Below are positions 43,873 to 53,005 of a stretch of 64,000 nucleotides of DNA, piece by piece (within the stretch, counting starts at the first letter, position 1; each line of letters opens with the position of its first letter). The DNA is from Magnetococcales bacterium WMHbin3 (GTDB taxonomy: Bacteria; Pseudomonadota; Magnetococcia; Magnetococcales; Magnetaquicoccaceae). A program made the translations under genes and the position numbers. The notes under the pieces were generated by a model. That model was not told where the DNA came from, made no database searches, and was given only the letters and a program-made list of their open reading frames with translations. The stretch spans positions 1 through 64,000 of the forward strand of contig PDZX01000001.1 of assembly GCA_002753185.1 (NCBI GenBank). Reading direction: 5' to 3'.

Positions 43873-44403
43873 TCACATGCCATCCAGCAGGCGCTGGTGG
43901 CGATCGAAGCGTTCCAACAGCAGAAAGGTCAACAAACCGTTCATGATCCCGGTGATCCACGAGCCGGCCAAAAACCACGGCAACGCCGTCAGAATGCCGG
44001 CATGACCAATGACCAACAACCAGGCGGCGACGGTCTGAGCGAGCATGTGCGCCAGGGCGGCCAACAGCGATACCCCCACCGGCCCCAGCCGCGCGGGCGA
44101 CATGTCCGCCAGGCCCATGGCCGCCATCGCTCCGACCGCGCCGCAGAAACTCAACAAAAAAGTCGGCGAAAACAACGTTCCCAACACCATGGACCCCGCC
44201 ACGACCCGGATCAGCGTCACCGACACGGCGGCACGCCAACCAAACCGGAAAAAGGCCACCAACGCGAATACATTCGCCAGCCCCGGCTTGAACCACGGCC
44301 CCGGACCCGGCGCCACCGCCTCCAGCAGATGCGCCGCCAGGGCCGCCGCAGCCAGATAGGCCACCAGCAGATCCCGCCGCAACCCCTTGGAGGCCTCGCT
44401 CAT
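43873..44403 (-). CDS. Gx transporter family membrane protein (Hpre_diP_synt_I)
   Basis: About 176 residues with five or six membrane helices (LLVAYLAAAALAAHLLEAV, LANVFALVAFFRFGWRAAV, FLLSFCGAVGAMAAMGLA, LTFLLLERF at the end). PGPGPWFKPGLANVFALVAF is the family hallmark. Members were once called heptaprenyl diphosphate synthase component I, but they look like ECF-type S components. The start overlaps the stop of the HD-GYP gene (TGATG). As I recall, its usual partner is a NusG-domain-II gene, found here 7 kb away on the same strand. Confidence 0.85.
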   Translation of the reverse strand: MSEASKGLRRDLLVAYLAAAALAAHLLEAVAPGPGPWFKPGLANVFALVAFFRFGWRAAVSVTLIRVVAGSMVLGTLFSPTFLLSFCGAVGAMAAMGLADMSPARLGPVGVSLLAALAHMLAQTVAAWLLVIGHAGILTALPWFLAGSWITGIMNGLLTFLLLERFDRHQRLLDGM

Positions 44404-46463
44404 CACCCCCTGGGGGTAATGAACGGGGAGATATCCACCTGATCGATCTGAAACGGCTCCAGAAACTGCTCGGCGTATTTTTGATACACTCCGGCCGTCA
44501 GAAAGATATCGAAAAGATCCGGATCGATATGACCGTCTTTTTTCATGAAGCTCATGATTTTGATCGCCTGGCTCAGGGTCTTGGGTTCCTTGTAGGGGCG
44601 ATCCGTGGCGGTCAGGGCCTCGAAGACATCGGCGATTGCCATGATGCGCGCGGGAATCGACATCTCCTCCCGTTGCAGCTTGCGCGGATAGCCGGTGCCC
44701 AGCATGGTCTCGTGGTGCGCGCCGGCGTACTCCGGCACCTGCGACAGGTTGTCGGGAAAGGGGAGTTTTTTCAGCATGGCCAGGGTCTGCACCGCATGCT
44801 CGTTGATTTTGTAGCGCTCCTCGTTGGTGAGCGTGCCGCGTTCGATACAGAGATTGTAGACCTCGCCCATATTGTACAGGTGCTCCGGCGCGGGCATGCG
44901 AATCCCCAAGGTTTCATCCCGTTCGCGGGTTTCCCGCTCCCTGGGGATGATGTGTTCCGTCTTGTCGGCCAGCAACGGCTCCGGGGCCGGAGTCACGCTC
45001 TTGCCATCTCCCTTGCGTTTGATTTCCGCATGGGAGAGGCCCAGCCGGTCATCGAAGTGACGTGTCCAGGTCCTTTGCGCCAGTTGTTGGATTCGCTCCT
45101 TGTCCGCAGGACGCATGAACTCCCCGCCGACGTTGCATTTGGCGATGAAGGCATACTCCTCCTGCAAGGCGGCCTGGCGTTCCCGCATTTCCCGTTGGAG
45201 TTCCCCGGCCGCCTCCGCGTTCTTCAGCGTCGCCTTCAGGCAGGCGATCTCCGCGTCGCGATGCAGCACCTCGAAGCGCATGCGTACCTCGTGGATGCGG
45301 TTGTGGATCCCTTCCAGCTTGGTGGCCTTGTCCACCACGTATTCCGGCGTGGTCACCTTGCCGCAGTCGTGCAGCCAGGAGGCGATCCGCATCTCCTGAT
45401 GCTCGTCCTCGTTCATGGTAAATTCGGCATAGCCCGGATGATCCGTCTCGCAAACCGCCTCGGCCAGCAGACGGGCCAGCTCCGGCACCCGTTCGCAATG
45501 GCCGCCGGTGTACGGCGACTTGGCGTCGATGGCGGCGGCGATCAGCCGGATGAAGGAGTCGAAGAGGTCCTTCTGGGCCTGCAACAGAATCTGGTTGTCC
45601 AACGTCATGGCGGCTTGCGCCGCCAGGGCCTCCACGAAGGTGACCACCTCCGGATCGAAGGGAATGACCTGGCCGGTGGCCGGATCGGTGGCATTGATCA
45701 GCTGCATGACGCCGATCACCCGCCCCTGGCGTGGCTTCAAGGGCACGGTGAGAAACGATTGCGAACGATAGCTGGTCCCCTTGTCGAATTGACGGACCCC
45801 GGCAAAGTCGAAGTGGGTCGAATCGTAGGCATCATCCACCACCACCGCCGCGCTGGTCAACGCGACATGGGCGGCAATATTCTGGTGATTGGGGCTGCCA
45901 TCCGGTTTCCACATGGGAACCGCAGGCATGAAAATCGGTTTCCTGCCCGCCCCGCCCATGGCAATACCCAGCGAGTCGGTGCGCACGATGGTGAATTTCA
46001 GAAAATCGTCCCTGGTGCGCAGATAGAGGGTGCCGGCATCGGCATGGGTCAGGGCCTTGCCGCCCAGCAATATATTTTCCAAAAGGGTATCGATATCCCG
46101 CTCCGCCGCCAGGGAGATCCCCAGATCGACCAGTTTTTCCAGTTTTTCCTGGCTGCGTACCAGATCGCGGGTGCGCACCTTGACCGTTTCTTCCAGGATT
46201 TCGGCGTGTTTGGACAACTGCGCGTGCGCGGTGGTCAGTTCTTCCTGCTGCTGCCGGATGCGGACGTTGGCCTGCTTGACCTTCTCTTCGCTGCGGTCGC
46301 TCATCCGCATCAGCTTTTGCGTACCCTTGAAGAGCTTTTCGTATCCCTGCAGCAGGTTGTCCATCCCCGCGCGCAGTTCCTCCGCTGTCGCGTCCCCCCG
46401 CGCCAGGAGTGTGGCGGCCGCATCCAAGGCGGCATTTTCGTCCTGAAAAATATCGAAACTCAT
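44403..46463 (-). CDS. GAF-HD-GYP c-di-GMP phosphodiesterase, last gene of the Sia-like module
   Basis: About 686 residues from the ATG with GGAGAGGGG upstream. A coiled-coil N-terminus (about 30-115) precedes a GAF domain (about 120-310). The HD-GYP domain follows: first half with HDCGK (WLHDCGKVTTPEYV, about 365) and second half with HHETMLGTGYPRKL (about 590) and MAIADVFEALTATDRPYK. About 150 residues lie between the two halves. HD-GYP proteins hydrolyse c-di-GMP, and the metal-ligand motifs are intact. It occupies the place of the diguanylate cyclase SiaD in the Pseudomonas operon. There is no membrane segment, so control by SiaC binding is plausible. Confidence 0.88.
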   Translation of the reverse strand: MSFDIFQDENAALDAAATLLARGDATAEELRAGMDNLLQGYEKLFKGTQKLMRMSDRSEEKVKQANVRIRQQQEELTTAHAQLSKHAEILEETVKVRTRDLVRSQEKLEKLVDLGISLAAERDIDTLLENILLGGKALTHADAGTLYLRTRDDFLKFTIVRTDSLGIAMGGAGRKPIFMPAVPMWKPDGSPNHQNIAAHVALTSAAVVVDDAYDSTHFDFAGVRQFDKGTSYRSQSFLTVPLKPRQGRVIGVMQLINATDPATGQVIPFDPEVVTFVEALAAQAAMTLDNQILLQAQKDLFDSFIRLIAAAIDAKSPYTGGHCERVPELARLLAEAVCETDHPGYAEFTMNEDEHQEMRIASWLHDCGKVTTPEYVVDKATKLEGIHNRIHEVRMRFEVLHRDAEIACLKATLKNAEAAGELQREMRERQAALQEEYAFIAKCNVGGEFMRPADKERIQQLAQRTWTRHFDDRLGLSHAEIKRKGDGKSVTPAPEPLLADKTEHIIPRERETRERDETLGIRMPAPEHLYNMGEVYNLCIERGTLTNEERYKINEHAVQTLAMLKKLPFPDNLSQVPEYAGAHHETMLGTGYPRKLQREEMSIPARIMAIADVFEALTATDRPYKEPKTLSQAIKIMSFMKKDGHIDPDLFDIFLTAGVYQKYAEQFLEPFQIDQVDISPFITPRG

Positions 46464-46492
46464 TCCCCTCTCCTGTCGTGCGAGCGGATCGT

Positions 46493-46876
46493 CTAGCGCA
46501 GGGCGCACATGTTGAAGGTGGCGGCCTGCAACTCCTCGCCGAACTCCTCGCCCAACTCCTGCATGTTGTCGTCATCCTCGGCGAAGCGCCAGTTGACGGT
46601 CACCGCCACTCCCTGGCCGGCGGTTTTTTCCAGGAGATCGAACAGCTTCATCACCACCTTGGCACTGGTGCTGTTGAAATAAATCATCTCGAAATCGAAC
46701 TCCACGTAGCCGGCCTGCATCCCTCGCAGGTGGGACTCCAGGGCGGAAAGCGGCGGACCGAAAAAGGTTGGGACATCTTCGGGGTAGGATTCGCCGCGCA
46801 TGGAAAAGCGGTTGTCGGCGAAGTTGAAGTCGATGGCCGGAGTGCGCTCGGTTGCGTCGATTTTGATGTTCTCCAT
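46493..46876 (-). CDS. siaC: SiaC-family regulatory phosphoprotein (DUF1987)
   Basis: The protein has 127 residues, a normal SiaC size. Family text: MENIKIDATERTPAIDFNFA, RGESYPEDVPTFFGPPLSAL, FDFEMIYFNSTSAKVVMKLF and the C-terminal VAVTVNWRFAEDDDNMQELG. The Ser/Thr cluster at 69-71 (YFNSTSAK) lies where SiaC is phosphorylated. In Pseudomonas, unphosphorylated SiaC binds and activates SiaD, SiaB phosphorylates it and SiaA reverses this. It lies between siaB and the HD-GYP gene, 13 and about 30 bases away. Confidence 0.9.
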   Translation of the reverse strand: MENIKIDATERTPAIDFNFADNRFSMRGESYPEDVPTFFGPPLSALESHLRGMQAGYVEFDFEMIYFNSTSAKVVMKLFDLLEKTAGQGVAVTVNWRFAEDDDNMQELGEEFGEELQAATFNMCALR

Positions 46877-46889
46877 GGCTTTGGCTCCT

Positions 46890-47435
46890 TCAATTGGGGC
46901 GGATGACCGCTTTCAGGGCAAAATAACTGTAATTGCTATCGATCGGAATGAAATCGAACTCGATGGGTTGCGAGGATCGGCGGGCGATATCCACGAAGCC
47001 GACGCCGGCTCCCTTGCTCCCTTCGGGGACCTCGCCCTTGAGGATCTGCCGGTACATGGCCTTCAGTTCTTCCCGGTCCATGGCGCGGATGGAGGCCAAC
47101 TTTTCGCGCAGGCGGTTGGCCTGGCCGATTTCCACGCGGTTGCCGCAGGTGACGAAAAAACCCTCGCCATCGCGTCCCACGGTCAGGGTGCCTTGACCCA
47201 GGGCCTGGGTATCCCGATCTTCCGCGTAACGAATGACGTTTTGTATTTGTTCGACCAGTATTGAGAATACGTTTTGCACGGTGCCGGGATGATCGGTTTC
47301 CACGGCGATCTTCTGTTTGACGAGTTGTCCGAGGCCGGGCAGGAGCGCCTCGTTCATCGGCCCGCTGTAGCAGAACAGCACGTTTTCTTCCTCCAGCAAC
47401 TTGCGAATCCGGTAATGCTCTTGAGCCAGGGACAT
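46890..47435 (-). CDS. siaB: SiaB-family protein kinase
   Basis: About 181 residues from the ATG with GAGAGG upstream. FCYSGPMNEALLPGLGQLVK, the ATPase-type N-box QNVIRYAED and the GEGFFVTCGNRVEIGQANRL strand pair match SiaB proteins (DUF6272, GHKL-like kinases). SiaB phosphorylates SiaC and so switches its downstream enzyme off. The conserved Asn in IQNVIRY is retained, so the kinase is probably active. Adjacent to siaC, as in the known operon. Confidence 0.88.
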   Translation of the reverse strand: MSLAQEHYRIRKLLEEENVLFCYSGPMNEALLPGLGQLVKQKIAVETDHPGTVQNVFSILVEQIQNVIRYAEDRDTQALGQGTLTVGRDGEGFFVTCGNRVEIGQANRLREKLASIRAMDREELKAMYRQILKGEVPEGSKGAGVGFVDIARRSSQPIEFDFIPIDSNYSYFALKAVIRPN

Positions 47436-47455
47436 GGAAGCAACCTCTCGTGATG

Positions 47456-47872
47456 TCAGTGGGACGCGCCGCTGAGTTTTGGTTTCAAAAAAGTTCCCAA
47501 CTCCAGGTCGGTTTCGAGAATGTGGTGGGTCAGCCAGTTGCGCAGGAATTCCAGCACCTCCAGGGTGATTTCGGCCTGGTTGGCGTGAAAGGCCTTCTGG
47601 AGGGACGCGGCCTGTTCGATCAGTCCGGCGTGTTCGTTTTTGTGGGCCATGAATCCCTTGAATCGATAGGTCTGCATGAGTCTTTCCTCGTGGCGGAAAT
47701 GCCATGAGGTATAACTGATCAATTCGTCGAGGATTTTGCCGATGCGTATGCGTTCGGAGCCATCCCGGCTGGCCACGATCAGGGCATTGAGCATTTCCAC
47801 CAGTTTTTTGTGGTCGTTATCGATTTCCGCCAGGCCAACGCTCAGGGCGTCGGTCCACTGCAAGGTTTCCAT
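47456..47872 (-). CDS. Bacteriohaemerythrin within the Sia-like module
   Basis: The protein has 138 residues, a single-domain haemerythrin. The ligand set is complete: DNDHKKL (about 18-24), WHFRHEE (about 57-63), HKNEH (about 77-81) and HHILETD (about 115-121), which would hold a di-iron O2-binding site. It is inserted between the phosphatase gene and siaB, a position not occupied in the Pseudomonas operon. It could carry or report O2 to the module. It is related to the haemerythrin domain fused to the chemoreceptor at 4489-7332. Confidence 0.92.
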   Translation of the reverse strand: METLQWTDALSVGLAEIDNDHKKLVEMLNALIVASRDGSERIRIGKILDELISYTSWHFRHEERLMQTYRFKGFMAHKNEHAGLIEQAASLQKAFHANQAEITLEVLEFLRNWLTHHILETDLELGTFLKPKLSGASH

Positions 47873-47890
47873 GATTTGTTTTCCTTTCCA

Positions 47891-50800
47891 TCAATTGATA
47901 ATACCCTTGAACCCCACCACAGAAACGTCGTCCCGTCTGTGTTCGTTGTTTTGATAGGCGAGCAGGGCCTGTTTTATGTGTTCCCCGTGTTCGGCGATGG
48001 GGGTTTGCCGCAGCGAGTCCAGCAGTTTCACGAAGCGTTGCTTGCCGAAGGCGCGCCGCGACTCGCCGCCCAGTTGATCGATGAGACCATCAGACGTCAT
48101 ATAGTAGCACCACTCCTGGCGCAACGCCACCTCCTGGGCGGTGAACCGGATATCCCTGGGAAAATCCCGATAGCCGATGCCGAGTTTGTCGCCCTTGATC
48201 TCCTGGCACGCTTCCTCCGAGACCACGAACAGGGAGAAACGTGCCCCGGAGTAGGTCAGGTTGGTCAGTTCGGGGTCCAGATAGCAAACCCCCAATTCCA
48301 GGCCGTCGTTGGAGGCCCCTTCTTCCCGGTCCTGTCCCAGGGCGAGTTGAATCAGTTGATGCATGCGTTGCAGCAGGGTGGCGGTATCGCCCGGCGGGGT
48401 TTCCAGCAATGCCTGATCCAGGGCGCCGTTGGCGATCAGGGTGATGAAGGCCCCCGGAACCCCATGGCCGGTGCAATCCCCCAGCGCCAGCAGCGTGCCG
48501 GTGATCCAGGGGCGGTACCAGTACATATCCCCACCCACCACGTCGCGGGGTTCCCACAGCACGAAATGTTCGGGCAGTACCTCGGTCAACATCTGGGGGG
48601 GGACAAGGATGGAACGCTGGATGCGACTGGCGTAATGGATGCTCGATGAGATGAGTTTCAAGGCTTCTTGCAGCCGCTCTTCGGCCTGTTTGCGCCGGGT
48701 GATGTCCTCCTTGTTGGCCAGGTAATGCCTGACCTTGCCATCGGGATCCCGAATTGGCGAAATCGTGGTCGCCTCCCAGTAGAGTTGGCCGCTCTTGGTG
48801 CGGTTGAGGAGTTCTCCTTCCCAGGTCTCGCCGGTAAGCAGGGTTTGCCACAGGGATTGGTAGAAACCGGCCTCCAACGATCCGGATCGCAGGATGCGAG
48901 GATTTTTGCCCATGACCTCTTCGGCACTATAACCGCTCACCCTGGTGAAGGCGGGATTGACGTATTCGATGCGAGCCTTGGGATCCGTGATGACGATGGA
49001 AACCGGGCTTTGCTCCACGGCGCTGCTCAGGATGCGGATTTTCTGTTCGATGAGCAGCCTCTCGGTGATGTCCCGGAACACCACCACCGAACCGATCAAC
49101 TGTTGTTCCTTCCAGATCGGATGGCTGGAAAATTCCACCGAAAACAGGCCCGCATCCTTGCGCCAGAAGCGTTCGTCCGCCCTGTGTACCTGTCTTTCCT
49201 GGACGAATTCTTTCCGCAGTGGACATTTCTCCTTGAGGCAGCCGCTTTTGTCGTGATCGTGGTGATTGATCAGAATGCAAACTTCCTGGCCGATCAGTTC
49301 CTCCGGCTGGCGGTTCAGCATGGCGGCCCCCGCCGGATTGAAAAAATTGATGCGCCCTTCCACATCCAGCCCGAAGATCCCTTCCCCTACCGATTCCAGA
49401 AGCAGGCGGCTGCGCTCCTCGGCGGCCTCCAGGGCCGTTTCCGCCTGTTTGCGTTCCCGGATCTCGCGACCCAGCCGACGGTTCCAGACCATGATCGCCA
49501 CGACGATCAGCACCACCGCCAGGCCAATGGGGACGATCCACAGCAGCAGGTGTTTCATTTCGATGCCGATTTGCACCTGGACCGCCATCCAGGCATTGAG
49601 AATGGCGGTTCGGTCCCGGTTGGCGATCCGCTTGATGCCTTTTTGCAGGATCGACCGCAACTCCGGCCAATCCTGGCGCACCGCCATGGCCAATGCGACC
49701 TGGTGCGGGGTGGGGGCCGCCAGACGCAGCTTGTCCAGGGAGAGGCGCTGCATCTCGTAGGTCGCGCTGGCCAGATTGTCCACCACGGCATCGATTTTGC
49801 GTTGATCCAATGCCTGCAGCGCATCTCCCAGCGTCGCCATGACCAATGGTTGCGTCCTGGCATGGCGGCGCACCAGATCTCCCTCCAGCGTGTCTTCCTC
49901 GATGACCGCCACTTTGCTTTCCGTCAAGTCCTCCAACCCGCCGACGAACGCCCCATCCCGATGGGTGACGATCATCACCGGAAAGGTCAGGTAAGGTTCG
50001 GTGAGCAGCAGCGATGCCAGCGGCTTCTCACCGGTCATGACTGCAGGCAGCAGGTCGATTTTGCCACTCGCAAGGGCCGCGCTGGCCTCCGTCCCGGAGC
50101 CGAAGGGAACCGCCGTGAGGGCCAGGCCGGACTGACTGGCGAGCAGGTTGGCGAAGTCGGCGCTCATGCCGGTGAACTTGCCGTTCTGGAAGAATTCGAA
50201 CGGCGGATTGGCCGTGACCACCCCGACGCGGATCCTGGGATGCTGTTTCACCCAGGCCTCTTCCTCGTTGGTCAGTTGCAGCGCATCCGCCGGTTTCCCG
50301 GAGGTGGCCGGGATGGCGTTGGGCCATTTCTCTTCGAGTCGTTTCATCTCCTGGGGGGTGATCTCCCCCATTGCCTTTTGCAGAAGATCCCGCAAGCGGA
50401 CCATGGATTTGGGCAAGGCGATCCCGGTCGTGCTGCCCGGATAGGGAGGGGTGAACACCACGTCGCCGGCACCCACCGACCCGGCGGGCGGGTCGAGCAC
50501 GAGATCCGCATCCTCCTGGCCCGACGCATGACGGATCGGAATCGCCAGCTTGGACGCCAAAAGGTCCAGGTAGTCGATGGCGAAGCCGCGCGGCTGGGTC
50601 CCATCCCGAAAATGAAACGGGGGCCGATCCGATGTGAAGCCGACCCGGAAGGGAGCGGGATTGTCCTCCAGCCATTGCCGGTCATCCGTTGACAGGCGGG
50701 TGGCCAGGTCGGCGGCGCGTTCGTTCTGAAAGAAGCGGGTCAGGACCGCTTCCGCTTCCCCGTTGGCGGTCAAGGCTTGCAGTTCCCGCTCCAGCGCCTC

Positions 50801-51502
50801 GGTGAGCACGGCGTTGGGGGAGCTTTTCGAAAAGCCGTAGTTCATGGCGATGGACATCACCATGCGGTACTGGGCGAAGGCGTAGTCCGTGACGCCCAGG
50901 CCCGCCAGGGCACTCTCCATGGCGCGGCGGTCCAGGACGATCACCGTGTCCACCGCCCCGGTGACGAATTGATCGAGCAGCCCGTAGTCGTCCCCGGCAT
51001 GGGGGCGTTTCGCCAGTTCCTGGTCCTTGTCGAAGCGGGGGAAATAGGCGGTACCCTTTTTGGTGCCGATGGTTCTGGTCTTGAGGTCGTCGTAATTGCG
51101 GATGGCCTGTTCCTGTCCCTTGCGGACCAGAAAGAGAATCTCCTGCTGTTCGTAGCCGACAGGGGAGGAAAAGCGGATCCACTGTTCCCTTTCCGGGGTC
51201 TGGATGGTGCGCGGCACGATATCCACATTGCCGCTTTTCAGATCCTCGATGCTCTTGGAGAAGGGCTGGTCCCGCCACGCCACCCGTATGGCCAGGCGCT
51301 GGGCGGCCAGGTCCAGCAGTTCCTTGAGCGAGCCACCCAGGAACTCCCCCTGGACGATCATGTGGGGGGGACGATGGCGGATGTGGGCGGTCAGCATCTT
51401 TTCCTCCGCCAGACCCGCGCCGGTGAGCATCATCAGCCAGGTCAACACCGTCAGGAGTGGCAGGCACAGGTGGAGAGAGGGGATTTTTTTGATAAATGTC
51501 AT
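47891..51502 (-). CDS. SiaA-like sensor phosphatase: SBP-type sensors, two PAS domains, PP2C/SpoIIE output
   Basis: The protein has 1203 residues. After a signal segment (about 10-32) come periplasmic solute-binding (SBP_bac_3) domains at about 37-265, a shortened one at about 275-400 and another at about 415-645. One membrane helix (about 660-682, LLLWIVPIGLAVVLIVVAIM) leads to two PAS domains (about 705-955; IVITDPKARIEYVNPAFTRV). The C-terminal PP2C phosphatase (about 985-1200) has DVVGGDMYW, GDCTGHGVPGAF, MTSDGLID and HRRDDVSVVG, with the metal-binding Asp residues kept. It should dephosphorylate SiaC on sensing an amino acid-like ligand. Known SiaA has a different, smaller sensor. Confidence 0.88.
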   Translation of the reverse strand: MTFIKKIPSLHLCLPLLTVLTWLMMLTGAGLAEEKMLTAHIRHRPPHMIVQGEFLGGSLKELLDLAAQRLAIRVAWRDQPFSKSIEDLKSGNVDIVPRTIQTPEREQWIRFSSPVGYEQQEILFLVRKGQEQAIRNYDDLKTRTIGTKKGTAYFPRFDKDQELAKRPHAGDDYGLLDQFVTGAVDTVIVLDRRAMESALAGLGVTDYAFAQYRMVMSIAMNYGFSKSSPNAVLTEALERELQALTANGEAEAVLTRFFQNERAADLATRLSTDDRQWLEDNPAPFRVGFTSDRPPFHFRDGTQPRGFAIDYLDLLASKLAIPIRHASGQEDADLVLDPPAGSVGAGDVVFTPPYPGSTTGIALPKSMVRLRDLLQKAMGEITPQEMKRLEEKWPNAIPATSGKPADALQLTNEEEAWVKQHPRIRVGVVTANPPFEFFQNGKFTGMSADFANLLASQSGLALTAVPFGSGTEASAALASGKIDLLPAVMTGEKPLASLLLTEPYLTFPVMIVTHRDGAFVGGLEDLTESKVAVIEEDTLEGDLVRRHARTQPLVMATLGDALQALDQRKIDAVVDNLASATYEMQRLSLDKLRLAAPTPHQVALAMAVRQDWPELRSILQKGIKRIANRDRTAILNAWMAVQVQIGIEMKHLLLWIVPIGLAVVLIVVAIMVWNRRLGREIRERKQAETALEAAEERSRLLLESVGEGIFGLDVEGRINFFNPAGAAMLNRQPEELIGQEVCILINHHDHDKSGCLKEKCPLRKEFVQERQVHRADERFWRKDAGLFSVEFSSHPIWKEQQLIGSVVVFRDITERLLIEQKIRILSSAVEQSPVSIVITDPKARIEYVNPAFTRVSGYSAEEVMGKNPRILRSGSLEAGFYQSLWQTLLTGETWEGELLNRTKSGQLYWEATTISPIRDPDGKVRHYLANKEDITRRKQAEERLQEALKLISSSIHYASRIQRSILVPPQMLTEVLPEHFVLWEPRDVVGGDMYWYRPWITGTLLALGDCTGHGVPGAFITLIANGALDQALLETPPGDTATLLQRMHQLIQLALGQDREEGASNDGLELGVCYLDPELTNLTYSGARFSLFVVSEEACQEIKGDKLGIGYRDFPRDIRFTAQEVALRQEWCYYMTSDGLIDQLGGESRRAFGKQRFVKLLDSLRQTPIAEHGEHIKQALLAYQNNEHRRDDVSVVGFKGIIN

Positions 51503-51581: not shown

Positions 51582-51977
51582 TCAGTGGGCCACGGCGTCG
51601 AATTCCCGTGTCGTCCCTTCCGGCTCCCCCTCCACCCGGATCAGGATGCCGCACGGGACACAAGCGGTGGTGCCGCCCGCGTCCCGGATCCAGCCGGTGC
51701 GGGTGCCGATCATGCGTGGCGAATCGTATTCCAACAGGCGGATACGCCCACCCTCGACCTGAATCCTCACCGGCCCCAGTCGGCCGGTCACTTCCGTGGT
51801 GAGATCCCGATCCATGGCCACGGTGAGGATGGGTTGGTTGTCCCGATAGACCGTGGCGCGATTGCCCGGCATCCGCATCATGGCCACCATGAGGGCGGCG
51901 ATGGCCAGGGCGGAGATCAGAATCACCCAGCGATCCGTCGTGTTGGTGGCGCGAAGGGCGAGCCGCCAGAGCTTCAT
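51582..51977 (-). CDS. NusG domain II-containing membrane protein
   Basis: The protein has 131 residues. One membrane helix (WVILISALAIAALMVAMMR, about 17-35) is followed by a NusG_II-type beta domain (about 45-125): VYRDNQPILTVAMDRDLTTE, then VEGGRIRLLEYDSPRMIGTR and CVPCGILIRVEGE. The Cys pair in ACVPCGILI is typical. The function is unknown. These genes are often found with apbE and Gx-transporter genes. The ATG overlaps the apbE stop (ATGA). The Sia-like module follows after 79 bases. Confidence 0.8.
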   Translation of the reverse strand: MKLWRLALRATNTTDRWVILISALAIAALMVAMMRMPGNRATVYRDNQPILTVAMDRDLTTEVTGRLGPVRIQVEGGRIRLLEYDSPRMIGTRTGWIRDAGGTTACVPCGILIRVEGEPEGTTREFDAVAH

Positions 51978-53005
51978 GGTCCCTTCACCCAGCGGCCGAT
52001 GAAGCCAGTGGTCTGGAAATGGCTGCCATCCTCGCGGATCAGCAGTGCCTCGCAGCCGGGAAAGTGGCGCAGCATCGCAAGCCCCGCCTGTTCTCCCAGC
52101 ACGAACAGGGCGGTGCTCAGTCCATCGGCGGTCATGGAGTCCGGGGCCTGAACCGATACCGATATCAGCCCGGCGCGGGCCGACTGGCCGGTTTTGGGGT
52201 CCAGGATGTGGTGGTGGCGGATCCCGTCGGCCATGAAGAACCGCTCGTAGTCCCCGGAGGTGGAGAGGGCCACCTCGCCGGCGAGATCCAGAATCGCCGC
52301 CACTCCTTGCGGATCCCGCGGATCCCTCAGACCCACATGCCAGGGCTTGCCCCCCTTGCTGCCCAGGATGCGCATGTCGCCGCCGGCATTGATCAGGGCG
52401 TCTTGCACCCCCTCCCGGCGCAGCATCTCCACGGCCCTTTCCACGGCGTATCCTTTGGCGATGCCGCCCAGGTCCAGGCCGACGCCCGCGTTGTCCAGGC
52501 GGATTTTTTTCTCCGATTCCCCGGAGCGTTCGATCCCAGCGTCGTTTTGCCGCGCCCGTTGCGCCAGCCATCCGGCGATCCGATCCGCCGGCGGGGGGCG
52601 GGTGGGCGGGGGTTCCAGGGAAAAGCCCCACAGATCCGACAAGGACCCCAGGCCGATGTCGAACGCCCCGGAGGCAAGACGCCCCATGGCCAGCCCCCTG
52701 TCCACCACCAGGGCCAGTTCCGCAGAGATCGGCTGCCATTGGCCGCGTTGGCCGCGATTGATGCGGGCGAGTTCGCTTTCCGGACGCATGCGGCTCATCC
52801 GCTCCTCGACGCGGGTCATCTCGTCGAAGGCCAGCGCCACGGCCCGCATGGAGAGCGCTTCCGGCATCCCCCAGGTGGAGATCTCCACCAAAGTACCCAT
52901 CAGCAGCCGGGTGGTCACGCTTGGCCGCAGCGGACGTTCCTGCCACCACCACCCCGCCACGAGCAACAGCGCCAACGTCAGCACCAGACCGATCCGGCCT
53001 CTCAT
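51974..53005 (-). CDS. apbE: FAD:protein FMN transferase ApbE
   Basis: The protein has 343 residues with an N-terminal export/anchor helix (about 5-20). ApbE motifs: MGTLVEISTW, a first conserved FDIGLGSLSDLWGF, LDLGGIAKGYAVERAVE (about 175), NAGGDMRILGSKG and a late TADGLSTALFVLGEQ with the metal-binding Asp. It attaches FMN covalently to Thr of periplasmic flavoproteins such as Rnf/Nqr subunits. The target is not encoded nearby. It overlaps rsmE by ATGA on one side and the NusG_II gene on the other. Confidence 0.92.
   Translation of the reverse strand: MRGRIGLVLTLALLLVAGWWWQERPLRPSVTTRLLMGTLVEISTWGMPEALSMRAVALAFDEMTRVEERMSRMRPESELARINRGQRGQWQPISAELALVVDRGLAMGRLASGAFDIGLGSLSDLWGFSLEPPPTRPPPADRIAGWLAQRARQNDAGIERSGESEKKIRLDNAGVGLDLGGIAKGYAVERAVEMLRREGVQDALINAGGDMRILGSKGGKPWHVGLRDPRDPQGVAAILDLAGEVALSTSGDYERFFMADGIRHHHILDPKTGQSARAGLISVSVQAPDSMTADGLSTALFVLGEQAGLAMLRHFPGCEALLIREDGSHFQTTGFIGRWVKGP

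Follow-up and report, generated by a model that had tools for sequence, protein, structure and literature searches.

Which enzyme does a SiaABC-type phospho-switch control when a GAF-HD-GYP phosphodiesterase stands in the place of the diguanylate cyclase SiaD? The question is raised by a locus in the window (the whole stretch of DNA analyzed, 64,000 nucleotides from Magnetococcales bacterium WMHbin3, a member of a magnetotactic group), which carries on its minus strand, from 51502 to 44403, the genes of a SiaA-type PP2C sensor, a haemerythrin, SiaB, SiaC and a GAF-HD-GYP protein, placed head to tail and nearly contiguous. An initial annotation, made without database searches, had proposed this five-gene run, the assignment of two of its products to DUF1987 and DUF6272, an enlarged sensor with solute-binding-type and PAS domains, and the replacement of SiaD by the HD-GYP protein. 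These points held: the five genes are all real and co-directional, both family assignments are backed by Pfam and by PDB matches, the sensor domains are recognized by Pfam, and the overall interpretation is supported, the replacement of SiaD being underpinned by a docking helix common to both proteins, which the annotation had not seen.

Components of the five-gene block

As the defining features of SiaABCD, we considered a membrane sensor with a PP2C phosphatase domain, a SiaB kinase of the DUF6272 family, a SiaC with a hydroxyl residue at the phosphorylated position, an output enzyme with a SiaC-binding stalk motif, and the GGDEF diguanylate cyclase SiaD in the operon. The first is met by the SiaA-type protein (1,203 amino acids; 47891..51502, minus strand), which consists of two family-3 solute-binding domains (Pfam SBP_bac_3, 1.7e-40), a transmembrane helix, two PAS domains (2e-34) and a PP2C/SpoIIE domain (1e-17). 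The sole PDB match of its PP2C part at E<=0.01 is SiaA of Pseudomonas aeruginosa (6k4e, E 2.6e-44). The second is met by the SiaB-type kinase (181 amino acids; 46890..47435, minus strand; Pfam DUF6272, 3.2e-42), whose start codon was placed at ATG 47435 after correction of the gene call; it retains the conserved E-x-x-QN box, and P. aeruginosa SiaB (6kko_A, E 2.6e-21) is the one protein that it matches in the PDB.

The SiaC-type phosphoprotein (127 amino acids; 46493..46876, minus strand; Pfam SiaC/DUF1987, 1.3e-37) matches P. aeruginosa SiaC in the PDB (6kko_C, E 2.2e-17). Its Ser69, within the motif Y-F-N-S-T-S, stands at T68 of P. aeruginosa SiaC and satisfies the requirement for a hydroxyl group, so that it is the expected phospho-residue; both this role and the phosphorylation itself are inferred from sequence alone. 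In the numbering of P. aeruginosa SiaC, the contact residues Y31, Y65, N67, M75, D79, L107 and E110 are identical in the window protein and R103 is not conserved. SiaC R103 and the stalk residue D91 (SiaD numbering) are both lost in the window, but kinship dominates the table of contact residues, so that no firm sign of covariation between SiaC and the stalk can be read from it.

The last feature is not met, the place of SiaD being occupied by a stalk-GAF-HD-GYP phosphodiesterase (686 amino acids; 44403..46463, minus strand; Pfam HD_5, 7.5e-48, and GAF, 3e-13). Its start was moved from the upstream GTG 46508 to ATG 46463, the position at which the aligned relatives begin. The metal ligands and the GYP motif expected of an HD-GYP enzyme are present (H322, H365-D366, K369, H556, H583-H584, D612 and G591-Y592-P593) and invariant in alignments of 12 and 15 homologues, and the closest relatives with names, at up to 91% identity, belong to Magnetococcales bins. 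The closest fold is that of the GAF-HD-GYP enzyme PmGH (4mcw, E 7e-16), with which the protein shares the order and fold of the two domains and from which it differs in the stalk placed in front and in a long insertion that separates the HD part from the GYP part. Tyr318 occupies what we take to be, from the alignment and from knowledge of the family, the position of the Glu of the third metal site in PmGH. The c-di-GMP chemistry is assumed from the family, and a different cyclic dinucleotide remains possible.

We also observed that the GAF domain (residues 138 to 303; 45555-46052) is nearest in fold to cyclic-nucleotide-binding GAF domains, namely, those of PDE5, CyaB2 and Lcd1 with cAMP. It is possible to hypothesize from this likeness that the phosphodiesterase also responds to a cyclic nucleotide.

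A SiaD-type docking stalk on the HD-GYP protein

In P. aeruginosa, SiaC grips the helical stalk of SiaD around R74-D91. SiaC T68 is positioned between S82 and Q86 of SiaD, and a phosphate on T68 prevents the grip; SiaC binding stabilizes the active parallel dimer of SiaD (PMC8457831). Within the first 120 residues or so of the HD-GYP protein, we identified a putative SiaC-docking motif, YEKLFKGTQKLMRMSDRSEEKVKQAN (residues 41 to 66; 46266..46343, minus strand), which aligns with YHKQLRRLEKVARISDRYQQMMRDLN of SiaD. K77, R80, S82, D83 and R84 of SiaD are identical in the HD-GYP stalk, where R53, S55 and E59 correspond to SiaD R80, S82 and Q86, whereas R74, Y85, M88 and D91 are not conserved; one clear docking motif is found, compared with two in SiaD. 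The AlphaFold2 model places the motif on one continuous helix of about 94 residues (27 to 120; 46104..46385, minus strand) that leads into the GAF-HD-GYP region, with block pLDDT values of 58 to 85 along its length.

The recognition of the stalk rests on a profile of SiaD-type cyclase stalks that was built only from GGDEF proteins outside Magnetococcales and is thus independent of the window protein. Searched against 16,571 open reading frames, this profile matched the window HD-GYP protein at E 2.7e-13, by which the requirement for an output enzyme with a SiaC-binding stalk is met; the first protein without a stalk appeared at E 0.022, and no stalk-less HD-GYP protein in this set was matched. 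Conversely, a profile of ten Magnetococcales proteins adjoining siaC, with no sequence from outside the order, placed SiaD (7e6g) at the top of 177,635 PDB sequences. This match is weak when taken alone (E 0.022), and both matched stretches fall on the two SiaC-binding motifs of SiaD. A phmmer search of the PDB with the whole HD-GYP protein did not find SiaD, the signal being obtained only with a stalk profile. The sequence evidence thus supports the view that the HD-GYP protein carries a SiaD-type docking stalk, which is the new element tying SiaC to this enzyme; the binding itself is inferred, no binding data being available.

Association of the stalk with siaC

Among 80 named loci of the HD-GYP subfamily, siaBC occurred within the fetched flank of 7 of 10 stalked members and of none of the 70 stalk-less ones (Fisher 4e-8), some stalked HD-GYP proteins being located away from siaC. 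In 249 genomes of the phylum, SiaC was detected in 56 and the stalk in 49, with both in 47, the stalk only in 2 and SiaC only in 9. These counts were not corrected for phylogeny, and the P values are therefore too small. Outside Magnetococcales, 12 of 13 stalk matches lay directly beside siaC although the search profile lacks sequences from there, an adjacency that is hard to explain other than by a real association.

The initial annotation had stated that its reading would be refuted by a GGDEF partner for this SiaC elsewhere in the genome. Such a partner was searched for and not found: the genome contains 42 GGDEF regions, and none of its GGDEF proteins carries the docking stalk according to either of two stalk profiles, even at E<=10. 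The genome has three siaC genes and only three stalked proteins, one in each siaC cluster, none of them a GGDEF protein. These genome-wide statements rest on profile searches of the genome's contigs, and since the bin is about 93% complete, a missing stalked GGDEF gene is not fully excluded.

Each of the genome's two remaining siaABC clusters (L004:8616-9962, contig C96, and L005:6268-7563, contig C74) was found to carry a class III nucleotidyl cyclase with a SiaC-docking stalk. Because of this arrangement, we infer that SiaC switches are likely to control cAMP or cGMP as well in this organism.

The haemerythrin and its position

The second gene of the block encodes a bacteriohaemerythrin (138 amino acids; 47456..47872, minus strand; Pfam, 9.6e-16). 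Alignment to the bacteriohaemerythrin 4xpx (E 1.7e-22) confirmed all seven di-iron ligands, H21, H58, E62, H77, H81, H117 and D122, that is, the five His, one Glu and one Asp expected of the family. A haemerythrin gene lies within 6 kb of 9 of the 51 siaC loci in the order, whereas haemerythrin density in the window genome would predict about 1.9. Where the SiaA gene could be read, the haemerythrin is mostly either directly 3' of it, as in the window and at five further loci (L045, L056, L061, L065 and L066), or fused to the SiaA C terminus after the SpoIIE domain, as in L043 and L069. Because it follows, or is fused to, SiaA, we place the haemerythrin on the input side and infer that it probably acts with SiaA. 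Its role in sensing oxygen or redox state is inferred from the family (PMC9388753), and the gating by oxygen put forward in the initial annotation remains an inference of the same kind.

Proposed mechanism and alternative explanations

We suggest that the block is likely to encode a SiaABC partner switch with a c-di-GMP phosphodiesterase as its output. The five parts, the catalytic residues and the docking stalk are supported by the sequence; SiaC binding, its dependence on phosphorylation, the sign of the effect, the substrate, the solute and the action of the haemerythrin through SiaA are only inferred, as no binding, kinase or phosphodiesterase data exist. In this view, SiaB would phosphorylate SiaC on Ser69, and the SiaA phosphatase would strip this phosphate under the control of a periplasmic solute and of cytoplasmic input from the PAS domains and the haemerythrin (oxygen or redox state). 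Unphosphorylated SiaC would then dock on the coiled-coil stalk at the N terminus of the HD-GYP protein in the way it does on that of SiaD. Docking would set how the two GAF-HD-GYP subunits of the dimer are arranged, and the most likely result is an active enzyme and a lower c-di-GMP level. Activation is considered more probable than inhibition by analogy with SiaD, the direction of control not having been shown. The inverted logic of the initial annotation, in which nutrient sensing leads to c-di-GMP loss, therefore remains an inference, the sign of SiaC action being undetermined by the sequence.

An alternative is that SiaC docks but turns the phosphodiesterase off, so that active SiaA would raise c-di-GMP with the same net sign as in SiaABCD. 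The sequence is compatible with either sign, and the stalk feeds a GAF domain with cyclic-nucleotide-binding structural relatives, so that the coupling may differ from that in SiaD; however, the only precedent is activation, SiaC stabilizing the active SiaD dimer (PMC8457831), and we regard this alternative as unlikely.

It is also improbable, in our opinion, that the haemerythrin carries iron or oxygen, or pairs directly with the HD-GYP protein, instead of serving as an input to SiaA, a reading that would be compatible with the main SiaC model. In its favor, a haemerythrin-HD-GYP fusion (Bhr-HD-GYP of Ferrovum) confers redox-controlled phosphodiesterase activity (PMC9388753), and the two genes share one operon here; against it stand the fusions to SiaA and the position directly 3' of the SiaA gene reported above.

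Finally, SiaABC could serve another client elsewhere, a diguanylate cyclase or a class III cyclase, with the HD-GYP gene as an independent neighbor, for which the many GGDEF regions and the two other stalked proteins of the genome could be cited, but this is very unlikely given that no GGDEF protein there is stalked, that each siaC gene has a stalked protein in its own cluster, and that the HD-GYP protein is itself stalked, stalk presence predicting siaC adjacency.

Comparison with known systems

The preferred reading, a SiaABC switch acting on the HD-GYP enzyme, shares with SiaABCD of P. aeruginosa (PA0172-PA0169) a PP2C sensor phosphatase, SiaB, SiaC and an output enzyme with an N-terminal docking stalk. 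It differs in having a GAF-HD-GYP instead of a GGDEF output, a Ser as the expected phospho-residue, an added haemerythrin gene, a larger SiaA with solute-binding and PAS domains, and a single clear docking motif. In HsbA-HsbD and BgrV-BgrR, a STAS-type protein likewise controls a c-di-GMP enzyme (cited in PMC8457831), but these systems act on diguanylate cyclases, their STAS protein is of another family, and no HD-GYP output is reported there. A haemerythrin is likewise joined to an HD-GYP phosphodiesterase in Bhr-HD-GYP of Ferrovum sp. PN-J185 (PMC9388753), although as a single fused protein without a partner switch, whereas the window haemerythrin is encoded by a separate gene behind SiaA.

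In the literature searched, SiaC is described only with SiaD and the five-gene composition was not found, in agreement with the statement of the initial annotation that such a system is not known to have been described; an earlier mention is not excluded. With the same reservation, both the HD-GYP output and a docking stalk common to several enzyme classes appear to be new. A switch characterized in detail with a single client, a cyclase producing c-di-GMP, would here be connected to an enzyme with the opposite activity, and the same type of signal could then give the opposite cell decision.

Genomic setting and distribution

The conserved gene run RsmE-ApbE-NusG_II-Gx-TonB is interrupted by the block, which lies between NusG_II and Gx (flanks 51582-52004 and 43873-44406). 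In most other relatives ApbE, NusG_II and Gx (Hpre_diP_synt_I) are contiguous, often with TonB too; NusG_II adjoins Gx at 12 of the 16 Gx loci of other relatives, and the remaining 4 could not be judged, NusG_II not being found in the short stretch available. Only in the window and in one congener (G001) does the block stand exactly between the two genes. This congener (L061, the same place as L120) is also the only other genome in which the same five-gene order was seen, its HD-GYP protein being 91% identical. Given a single block at this position, the five genes appear to have been acquired, or retained, together, a reason to count the haemerythrin and the HD-GYP protein as members of the module.

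A chance neighborhood and a chimeric or misassembled arrangement were considered and rejected, because the congener matches the window in the order of the five genes and in the genes on either side; moreover, unrelated bacteria have a three-gene version. This version, siaB-siaC beside a stalked HD-GYP gene, occurs in about twenty Magnetococcales genomes and, outside the order, in a Rhodospirillaceae bin (L127) and in the cultured Solidesulfovibrio aerotolerans DSM 16695 (L132), the latter making the prediction testable. At a further locus outside the order (L241:2537-3937), siaC is followed by a 467-amino-acid HD-GYP protein without a GAF domain, whose N terminus, RQERIMARSDKRQRKEY, is stalk-like and went undetected by the stalk profile.

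The other stalked clients adjoining siaC are GGDEF proteins, class III cyclases and histidine kinases. The authors of PMC8457831 suggest for DUF1987 proteins a general role in modulating the proteins next to them, and the presence of the stalk also on class III cyclases, histidine kinases and PP2C phosphatases makes SiaC look like a portable switch with a recognizable docking element. A bolder reading, towards which we lean by a narrow margin, is that SiaC is a general phospho-switch and that any enzyme given a short N-terminal docking stalk becomes its client, bacteria having joined the stalk to no fewer than five unrelated kinds of enzyme (diguanylate cyclases, HD-GYP phosphodiesterases, class III nucleotidyl cyclases, histidine kinases and PP2C phosphatases). 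One SiaC could then serve several clients simultaneously, and the Rhodospirillaceae bin points that way. The docking helix marks other likely SiaC targets in many bacteria and, being recognizable in sequence, would allow clients to be predicted from genomes and the element to be moved between enzymes.

The cluster of the Rhodospirillaceae bin (L127:6983-12485) comprises a stalked HD-GYP protein, a stalked histidine kinase and a stalked class III cyclase, with one siaC in the genome. Stalked SpoIIE/PP2C phosphatases were observed away from siaC at three loci (L110:5152-6135, L257:3858-4988 and L260:4881-5963), and these could possibly represent feedback phosphatases recruited by SiaC.
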